This document shows positions 25,677 to 28,813 of a DNA stretch of 53,628 bases, piece after piece. Location: NCBI GenBank assembly GCA_017554335.1, contig JAFZIO010000058.1, positions 1 to 53,628 on the forward strand, written 5' to 3'. A model generated the notes under the pieces. The model made no database searches. It saw only the letters and a list, made by a program, of their open reading frames with translations, and had not been told where the DNA came from. The translations under genes and the position numbers were made by a program. The DNA comes from Bacteroidales bacterium. GTDB taxonomy: Bacteria; Bacteroidota; Bacteroidia; Bacteroidales; UBA932. Position 1 is the first letter of the stretch, and each line of letters starts with the position of its first letter.

Positions 25677-27305
25677 TTATTGTGTATTCTTGTTGAATTC
25701 TTTTGGCCGCTTCAGGCTTTGCTCATAGAGCACCTTCCCTTCGGCATCGGTAACTCGTACTGTCACAGGAGCCGTGGCCGTTCTGGCAGTGGCCACGAAG
25801 CTGTGCGGCGTACGCCTGTCCTTCATGTTGGACTTGGAGGCTTCGCTCTTTTCGTCCAGCTTGGGAGTTATGTAAGTGATTACGTAAAGCGGTTCGTCCA
25901 GCTTGGAGAGTGTAACGTTCAGGGGCTTGCCGTTCTCCAGAATCTCCACCTTCTGGCCGGGTTCGTATCCCCAGTAGTTCACGTAAATCATGTTCTTGAA
26001 CCTGGGATCGGCATACCAGCTGCGCTCGGGATAGAGTTTATGGAAAATACGGCACTGGGGGTCGTTGCGGTAGAACTCCCCTACTTTGTTAATGTCGTAC
26101 ACCCTCATCATCTCGGGGCTGCCGTTGACGGCCACATAGCGGGGCCGGGGCTCGGCGGCGCTGCAGTCCATCACGTTGAAGGCCTGGTTGCATGAGTCGG
26201 AACCTATGGGCTGATAGCCCTCGGGGTGCTGCCACATGCTGCCGGAAGTGGCTCCGAAGATATACTGCTTGAAGCGGGTGAACTGCCCCATGTCGGTGTT
26301 GATGTGCTTGTGGGTGTGTCCGGAGAACAGGTACACCTTGGGGAAGTCGCGGAAAATTTCGTAAAGCAGCTCCGCCTGGCCGGGCATGAGTACCTCCGAC
26401 TTGCTGGCGTCGTTGACCACGGGAACGTGGCAGCAGAAGAACACCCTGGTGTCGGCGGGAACGTACTTGAGGTCTTCCTTCAGCCATTCCAGGTCCTTAT
26501 CCAGGAAGCGGCAGTTGTAGTTGCGCTTTCCGTTGATGTTCTTGTGCTTGGCGTCAGGTTCGCCGTCGTTGAGGTATTCAACTGAATCCATGAAGATCCA
26601 ATGGTCGCCGCCTATGTTGACCGAATAGCAGGCGGGACCCCAGGTATGGCGGTAGTTCCATGCCGACACAAAGTCAGTACTCTCGCCCAGTCCGGCAATG
26701 GCGCCGTCGTTATCGTGGTTGCCGGTAACCGAATAGACGGGGGTAGGATAGCCGGCCTCTGCCAGGAACTGCTCCGCCTTGTACTCGTTGAAGTCGAAAT
26801 CGTACCAGTAACGGTCGTGGGCAAAATCTCCGAGGTTGACGGTATAAACCGCACCCTTGGCAGACATCTGCCCGTACTCTTTCTTTATTACCGGAAGCAC
26901 TGTCTCCTTGAACCTGCCCAGGTCGTTCCTGGAAGGGTCGTTAGCAAAGTGGCAGTCGGTAATGAAGATTATGCCATACTGGTCCTGATTTTCCTCAACC
27001 AGCTTGAAATCATGGACTTCCGTCTTATTGGACGGCTTGGTAAGCATTTGCCAGAAAGCGGGACGGATGGCATCTGCCATCTCCGCCCTGTAGCCGGAAG
27101 GAGTGGTGATGAACACTACGCTGTCGGCCTTGTCGGTCTTCATCTTATAGCGGCCGCGGGCATTGGTGAGCACAACCTGGCGGCCGTCGGACACCTGCAC
27201 GCCGGCAAGCGGACGTCCTGCTGCGGTCACCTTGCCCTTGACGACGCCGGCAGAGACAGCCAGTGGCAGAATCAGCAAGGCAGTTAGAAGGATGGCACGT
27301 TTCAT
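25677..27305 (-). CDS. Calcineurin-like phosphoesterase, secreted
   Basis: A 542-aa product with signal peptide [19 protein letters not shown]. Residues of about 20-95 form a carboxypeptidase-regulatory-like beta domain ([18 protein letters not shown]). The metallophosphatase core follows with all blocks: FITDCHF near 114, GDFAHD near 157, GNHDNDG near 193, CCHVPV near 293 and SGHTHKH near 327. The C-terminal domain is the one found with such enzymes in Bacteroidota. The ATG overlaps the gcvPB stop (ATGA), which decides the start and shows coupling. Its substrate in the periplasm or at the surface is unknown and a link to glycine metabolism is not obvious. Confidence 0.87.
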
Positions 27306-28813
27306 GACCTGATGTATTTCAGTACCGGCTGACGCGCGGCCGTGGTCTCGTCGGGACGTCCAATGGGCGTATTGTGAGGGGCCGTATGCAGCATTTCGGA
27401 ATCTTCTGCCGCCTCGCGGGCAATGACGCGCATCACCTCGATGAAGGCATCGATGGTCTCCAGCGACTCGGTCTCCGTGGGCTCTATCATAATGGCCTGG
27501 TGGAAGAGCAGCGGGAAGTAGATGGTGGGTGCGTGGAAGCCGTAGTCCAGCAGCCTCTTGGCCACGTCCAGGGTGCTTACGCCGTTGGGCTCGGCAAGGC
27601 CGTCGAACACGAATTCGTGCTTGCAGACGGTGGGTATGGGCAGCTTGTAGCAGTCCTTGAGGCTCTCCTTGATGTAGTTGGCGGAGAGGGTCGCAAGAGG
27701 GCCGGCCATCTTGAGGTTCTCGCGTCCGAGCGCCAGGATGTAGGCGCATGCGCGGAGGATGATGCCGAAGTTGCCGTGGAAGCCGCTGGTGCGGGGTATG
27801 TCCAGAAGGGGCACGAGCTTGTCGGCCACACCTACGGGACCGCTGCCGGGGCCGCCTCCGCCGTGAGGGGTGGAGAAGGTCTTATGCAGGTTGAGATGCA
27901 TGATGTCGAAGCCCATGTCGCCGGGGCGCACGACTCCCATGAGGGGGTTCATGTTGGCGCCGTCGTAGTACAGCAGGCCTCCGCATTCGTGTACGAGTTC
28001 AGCTATCTCCTTGATATCGCGCTCGAAGAGGCCGAGGGTGTTGGGGTTGGTCATCATGATGCCGGCGATGTCGGGGCCGAGGAGTGGTTTGAGGTCCTCC
28101 ACGTCCACGAGGCCGTTTTCCTTTGACTTGACGACTACTATGTCGAGTCCGCAGACGGCGGCGCTGGCGGGGTTGGTGCCGTGGGCGCTGTCGGGGACTA
28201 TCACCTTGGTGCGGGCGAGGTCTCCCCTGCTCATGTGGTATTCGCGCATGAGCATGAGGCCGGTGAGTTCACCGTGGGCGCCGGCGCAGGGCAGGAAGGT
28301 GAAGTGCTTCATGCCGGTTATTTCTGCGAGGGCTTTGTCCATGAAGTCATAGACTGCCTGGATGCCCTTCGTGGTTTCTTTCGGCTGGAGGGGGTGTATG
28401 CCGTTGAACTGGCCGACTATCTCTTCGTTTATCTTGGGGTTGTACTTCATTGTACAGGAGCCCAGAGGATAGAAGCCGGTATCAACGCCGAAGTTCATCT
28501 GGCTCAGATTCGTATAGTGACGCACCACATCAGGTTCACTCACCTCGGGCAGATCCAACGGTGCTTCGCGCCAGACGCTGCCGGCTGACGTCGAGGCTGC
28601 AGCCCAGGCAGGGACGTGCCACCCTCGGCACGGAAGAGGGGGGACCACGTCAGTGGTGGGGTCGGAAGAAATCGGAGAATTTTGCGATCCTGCAAAATTG
28701 GACGAATCTTCCGACTCCCTGCCGGGCTGGCAGCCAAGAAGGCATGACGGCAGCGAATAGCCAATCCGGCCGGGTTTCGAGAGTTCGAATATCAGTTTAT
28801 CGTAGTATTTCAT
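27302..28813 (-). CDS. gcvPB: Glycine dehydrogenase (decarboxylating) subunit 2, with in-frame repeat insertion
   Basis: The C-terminal half of the split P protein, which decarboxylates glycine with PLP and passes the aminomethyl group to GcvH. The PLP lysine is in [11 protein letters not shown] near residue 308, with [13 protein letters not shown] near 112. The protein is 503 aa against a usual 480 or fewer: residues of about 24-75 ([13 protein letters not shown] to AGSVWR) have no counterpart in the family and coincide with a structured repeat (28596-28735). The flanking [16 protein letters not shown] and [13 protein letters not shown] are normal, the frame is open, and the insertion lies in the N-terminal linker, so activity may persist. 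Four-base overlaps join it to gcvPA and the phosphoesterase. Confidence 0.94.
28596..28735. repeat. Structured palindromic repeat inside gcvPB
   Basis: Outer arms GCTGCAGCCCAGGCAGGG and CCCTGCCGGGCTGGCAGC pair nearly fully. Within one side an inner hairpin pairs GTCGGAAGA and AATTTTGC blocks (28660-28716) around GATCCT, and the other side holds small hairpins (GTGCC/GGCAC, CCAC/GTGG). The whole could fold into a branched, cloverleaf-like structure. It is multiple-of-three compatible and adds about 50 codons to gcvPB. Confidence 0.75.

Follow-up and report, generated by a model that had tools for sequence, protein, structure and literature searches.

A dispersed palindromic element with a pseudoknotted head, probably mobile, lies in frame in gcvPB and other genes of a Bacteroidales genus

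Background

To our knowledge, palindromic elements that lie in frame within protein-coding genes are known chiefly from Rickettsia. As described in PMC10969869 and PMC3733652, the Rickettsia palindromic elements (RPEs) are repeats of ~150 bp that fall into several families, with many copies in frame in unrelated genes, and the review account attributes to each RPE a conserved encoded peptide (PMC10969869, PMC3733652). REPs are described as short palindromic hairpins of 20-40 bp with a GTAG or CGTC tag, present in many copies of which some lie inside genes, and MITEs as small, gene-less elements with inverted repeats at their ends (both in PMC3733652). Inverted repeats embedded in protein-coding genes have also been described from the mitochondria of Nematomorpha, and the part of that account drawn on here mentions no dispersed family with a common head (PMC6649704).

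Such a family is described in this study, starting from a copy found in a contig of a Bacteroidales bacterium (the window, all 53,628 nucleotides of JAFZIO010000058.1, assembly GCA_017554335.1). Like RPEs, it is dispersed as palindromic copies through a genome and its relatives and is inserted in frame in unrelated genes. It differs from them in encoding no conserved peptide, both strands and more than one frame being used, and in having a covarying pseudoknot head, arms that mostly differ from site to site and inversions at shared sites. Compared with the REP/REPtron systems and their RAYT transposases, it is mostly 100-180 bp long and multi-hairpin, and no transposase gene was seen beside the head. 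With MITEs it shares small size, the lack of a gene and the inverted repeats at its ends; however, leaving aside a subset with ~20 inner nucleotides in common, most arms are not common to copies, and no parent element was found. In intragenic invertons, inverted repeats inside genes enclose a spacer that may lie in either direction. The present element resembles them in its inversion at a fixed site, here seen between species (14 of 31 shared sites), but no recombinase site is evident and the spacer is itself a dispersed repeat. On balance, we consider that this is probably a non-coding mobile palindromic element of one Bacteroidales genus, working like a Rickettsia palindromic element. The initial annotation had drawn the same likeness, which the dispersed, in-frame family bears out; we claim similarity of working by description and not membership in the RPEs, since head, strand use and inversion differ.

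Results and discussion

An in-frame palindrome in gcvPB

The window gene gcvPB (27302..28813, minus strand) encodes glycine dehydrogenase subunit 2, a protein of 503 residues recognised from its open reading frame, from the NCBIfam model NF003346 (642.9 bits) and from PDB 1wyt_B, which matches residues 81-501 with an E-value of 1.9e-133. The NCBIfam model matches only from residue 74, and ~47 extra residues are placed after the conserved N-terminal GYSLP; in close relatives without the element, GcvPB has 456-457 residues and is shorter by these ~47 at the same point. It had been annotated at the outset that a segment near the N-terminus lacks a counterpart in the family, coincides with a foldable palindrome and leaves the frame intact, and both the position and the description proved right. 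The reading frame is open through the element, which spans 28595-28735 and forms a nested inverted repeat, its arms (28595-28614 and 28716-28735) surrounding a three-hairpin head. None of 200 shuffles folded as well as the native sequence in any of three predictions, namely minus-strand RNA over 28590-28742 (-80.6 kcal/mol, z -7.3), plus-strand single-stranded DNA of the element (z -7.7) and plus-strand RNA over 28585-28750 (z -6.6). A repeat search of the window reported the inner 12-bp hairpin only.

The gcvPB genes of other genomes were compared using the best 30 of 87 matching genomes, a sample in which close relatives are over-represented and of which 28 N-termini were readable (L055 and L057 are incomplete). 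The element is present in six of the 28, as different subtypes and in both directions, and hence is not a segment carried by every GcvPB of the lineage. In three other N-termini (L037, L052, L054) the linker is longer, and no head was recognised in it. The linker of L039 (genome G104) holds a second short palindrome, like GAGATTCCGGGACAGGCCCGGAATGAC, with the peptide EIPGQARND, and a stretch similar to this palindrome adjoins the element in L253; it may represent another palindromic family of the genus.

Architecture and covariation of the head

The element (28595..28735), as delimited by its sequence, its folds and its relatives, is read on the plus strand, antisense to gcvPB. The order on the head strand is left arm, P1 hairpin with the loop ACCCTC, linker, GAGGG, G-tract, P2, G-tract, P3 and right arm, and the typical size is ~100-180 bp. 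In the window, weaker arm pairing reaches outwards to 28576 on the left and 28755 on the right. P1 (28615..28632) reads CGTGCC-ACCCTC-GGCACG, and its loop bases CCCTC (28622-28626) pair with GAGGG (28636-28640) in an H-type pseudoknot (28622..28640). The following stretch (28641..28661), delimited by sequence, covariance model and covariation, comprises the G-tract, the P2 hairpin (28644-28657) and the second G-tract. P3 (28661..28715) takes a long form in the window copy, with GTCGGAAGA (28661-28669) opposite TCTTCCGAC (28707-28715), as seen in the sequence, the repeat search and the single-stranded DNA fold.

The head is conserved and covarying, with a pseudoknot. In 107 aligned matches of a covariance model built from 23 heads (R1), representing 94 distinct rows, the 14 head pairs are 94.4% paired, and 140 pair cells show changes at both positions, where shuffles average 37.3. 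Not one of 500 shuffles reached any of five covariation measures and slid versions scored far lower, with the alignment fitted to P1 and P2 and so favouring those helices. The pseudoknot helix, which is absent from R1, is paired in 99.8% of its cells, with double-sided changes in two of the five pairs (7 cells). Five of the six P1 pairs change on both sides, G-U pairs included. P2 is weaker (80.5% paired, one of three pairs mostly non-standard), because subtypes seem to pair in a shifted register. One weak match in the source genome (L104, G000:C71:42366-42454) has CCCCC/GGGGG in the pseudoknot instead of CCCTC/GAGGG. Identity with a known RNA family was considered and set aside, as the five weak Rfam matches obtained for the window stretch and eight loci (E-values down to 4e-5) all lie far below the gathering scores.

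Family size and host range

R1 finds the head at 15 places in the source genome at E<=0.05, 10 of them at E<=0.001, so that the window copy is far from solitary. By BLAST, the exact window subtype occurs as one copy in the source genome and has matches in 12 of 61 genomes of the genus, the source included. Six source-genome copies were inspected, each with its own paired arms and four with the variant P1 GTGTCC/GGACAC. Across the genus, R1 matches at E<=0.001 in 36 of 61 genomes (source genome included), with up to 31 copies per genome; because filtering was strict and the initial look capped, these are minimum figures, and a genome without a match may still carry the element.

The family is rare beyond the genus. 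At E<=1e-5 it was detected in 4 of 295 genomes of the order, the source included, and the three others gave loci (L284-L287) with the same architecture and other arms; across the phylum, only the source genome matched among 395. An exact-pattern scan of named genomes returned at least 119 stretches, and the titles among the matches listed were all Bacteroidales, Bacteroidia or Rikenellaceae, many of them naming ruminant samples and a few horse faeces. Viral contigs scanned with one exact pattern gave no match, nor did plasmids and phages searched with one copy as query. Among the open-access papers listed by the literature search, we saw none that describes elements of this kind from Bacteroidales. 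Occurring in many gut Bacteroidales species at up to ~30 copies per genome, the family offers far more comparative power and lets one study, within conserved enzymes, how sites are occupied, how elements invert and decay and how their arms co-evolve.

Two element-like copies in L005 (G009:C37) lie inside an array of ~50-bp repeated units. Contigs end close to elements in L145, L153-L155 (G072) and L125 (G017), as if repeated heads broke the assemblies.

Copies inside and between genes

The gene context of 214 of the 224 copies, the other 10 lying at edges, was classified by codon statistics trained on the loci themselves. In 54, both flanks are coding on the same strand and in the same frame, with the frame open through the element. 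Stops are present in 39 copies with flanks on the same strand but in another frame and in 8 with flanks in the same frame, both classes as assigned by this rough codon method. The remainder comprise 24 copies between convergent and 5 between divergent genes, 66 with one side coding and 18 with neither. All six gcvPB copies were placed in the class of 39 although they are in frame, because the 300-base flank reaches into the upstream gcvPA; the IspE copy L144, which lies in the gene, was placed under one side coding. The 54 in-frame copies are therefore a lower bound. They divide into 27 read in sense and 27 in antisense, in more than one frame. Nine interrupted proteins besides GcvPB were scanned, and UvrA, RNase R, RecG, MetH and IspE scored above a curated cut-off, while a lipoyl acyltransferase (E2), an RsmF-like methylase, a PLP aminotransferase-like protein and an RlmB/TrmH-type methylase each scored below its own. 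For annotators this carries a warning, as a single element has left its footprint in unrelated enzymes in the form of peptides such as TATLGTLRGGT or PPLTVPRVAR.

The branched RNA fold might suggest an intron-like, bypassed or RNA-processed segment that is removed before or during translation, and an RNA-processing site had been offered at the outset as an alternative. However, besides the 54 copies that are in frame and open, not one of the 214 was classed as frame-shifted without a stop, and frames are open more often in intragenic copies (192 of 324) than in intergenic copies (148 of 408). Judged from these frames, removal at the RNA level appears disfavoured, and we regard it as highly improbable.

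Arms that stay paired while differing between sites

Against a null of 1,000 pairings of arms from different loci, the match between the two arms of a copy exceeds the 99th percentile in 212 of 224 cases; the null maximum (89) is higher than any true score, presumably because near-identical copies were sometimes paired. Pairing begins at the head in 188 of 222 copies. In gapless Watson-Crick comparison of these 188, 96% of the first five positions are paired, a figure helped by the inner arm end having been picked by best match, followed by 65% at positions 20-24, 51% at 25-29, 34% at 30-34 and ~29% beyond. The stem measures ~28 bp, and its sequence mostly differs between sites while staying paired. 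Arms have a median identity of 0.63 when different sites of one genome are compared, 0.60 for unrelated sites and 0.72 for shared sites.

Several origins of the arms were considered. That they are made anew at every insertion is weakened by ~20 inner arm nucleotides common to several copies in G017, G066 and G073 (for example L066, L109, L120 and L128), from which it follows that arms can travel with the element. A pre-existing target palindrome was suggested by the gcvPB linker, and none was seen by eye at the empty IspE site. An inverted native flank, as a general source, seems by eye to explain only the outer part of one L034 arm.

In the 50 usable genome pairs of 70 that share an occupied site, 509 stem pairs are unchanged, 266 have changed on both sides and are still paired, and 52 have changed on one side. 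A further 190 are paired in just one of the two genomes and 83 are unpaired in both, and these broken pairs count against the explanation we favour. Median head identity is 0.81 within a genome, 0.84 at shared sites and 0.73 otherwise, values on which a genome-wide homogenisation of heads is not established. In L025/L068 and L038/L041, the heads differ inside similar arms.

Inversion at shared sites

Comparison of flanks yielded 70 pairs in which one site is occupied in two genomes, 37 in the same and 33 in opposite orientation; the pairs, whose genome labels were assigned by hand, are not independent, and 15 belong to gcvPB, in which the element sits at varying points of the linker. They form 31 sites, of which 14 have at least one inverted pair, and with gcvPB left out 24 of 55 pairs are inverted. 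Counts of same and inverted pairs are 19 and 20 where flank identity is in the 70s, 16 and 12 in the 80s, and 2 and 1 in the 90s. The window copy is itself inverted relative to that of G027, with flanks 92 and 91% identical, and in the alignments of L029/L192 and L134/L112 the arms are kept and the head between them is reversed. When intragenic copies are flipped on paper, the used frame is still open in 46 of 54. For comparison, 80 of 148 frames stay open in intergenic copies, and 124 of 192 when every open frame of the intragenic copies is counted. Misassembly at inverted repeats in these metagenome-derived genomes could conceivably account for the inversions.

The 33 inverted pairs and the 46 frames that survive flipping would also be expected of recoding invertons, in which a recombinase acts on the arms and inversion within a population changes the protein. 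This seems improbable to us, since the arms differ between sites so strongly (0.63 within a genome, 0.60 between unrelated sites) that no shared recombinase site stands out, all inversions were observed between species, and copies also lie between convergent genes.

Possible mechanism and the question of the mobiliser

Under the preferred reading of a mobile element that works like an RPE, the element would have spread to many places, and in-frame copies in tolerant protein loops would persist because they are translated harmlessly. That it moves at all is suggested by its patchy distribution. The mobility machinery would recognise the element by its head, and template switching from one arm to the other during replication could both keep the arms complementary and flip the head. 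Template switching is described as homogenising arms and inverting spacers in PMC8604942, and its occurrence between inverted repeats is also treated in PMC8794818. The family would allow a direct test of whether template switching maintains hairpins in nature. We also entertain, as an unlikely but bolder proposal, a new class of mobile element that has a pseudoknotted head and a stem with arms that keep being rewritten at each site to fit each other, that flips in place, is translated both ways and may have its spread directed by the head and not by a protein-coding parent.

A candidate mobiliser is the host Y1 tyrosine transposase, by which the element would be moved in a REP-like manner. 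The element is palindromic and foldable as single-stranded DNA, and Y1_Tnp is present in 19 of 20 genomes with at least seven heads (source included) against 14 of 25 without a match (Fisher p 0.005, with kinship and completeness uncontrolled). We nevertheless find this explanation doubtful, as a head lay within ~1.5 kb at none of 20 Y1 loci (of ~98 Y1 rows), 11 of them from carriers, no common tag was noticed outside the arms in the copies viewed by eye, and those 14 genomes possess Y1 genes yet have no head match. Divergent Y1 (HUH) transposase-like proteins of ~310 residues, often several per genome, are found in the genus (L292-L305). A link to reverse transcriptase was dismissed: of 20 carriers, 7 have RVT_1, as do 8 of the 25 genomes in which no head was matched. 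No gene-sized insert of the kind expected from a longer autonomous form was seen by eye in the ~160 nucleotides downstream of 19 partial matches.

Occupied and empty sites

At the IspE site, the empty locus L283 reads DGIITRCSMGLKDAL, whereas G033 (L144) reads DGIIPRDS, the element and then GLKNAL, with the remainder nearly identical and both 27-nucleotide arms absent from L283. The site is occupied in four of the five genomes compared, and an element also lies near the same residue in L126, L173 and L262. Because L283, the sole empty one, is the nearest to the occupied G033, this pair does not prove insertion; the sequences would fit either clean loss or repeated insertion in one loop. A target-site duplication was looked for at this one clean empty site, with flanks ~80% identical, and none was established; nor did any of the sites compared catch a fresh insertion. 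The search for an empty counterpart of a source-genome copy gave a best flank match of 77%.

Another site shared by G033 and G096 lies upstream of a gene which, from its start, we take to be htpG. Here the element is 95% identical and inverted, against 85% identity on the gene side and 80% in the far flank. Well-kept heads at old sites could instead mean that each copy has a function, and the better preservation of this element than of its flanks, the strong covariation and the excess of convergent (24) over divergent (5) intergenic copies are what one would expect of a structured RNA selected in mRNAs as terminator, stabiliser or regulator, and not of a selfish element. This alternative is nonetheless rather improbable in our judgement, given that both strands are used equally in genes and that presence at single sites is patchy. 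Upstream of the htpG-like gene, a head was seen by eye in 3 of 20 loci (~330 bases each). Several element-free relatives (in L335-L351) have another hairpin between the start codon and a motif like TGACAAATTGTCA, and it appears as if the element replaced a hairpin at this site.
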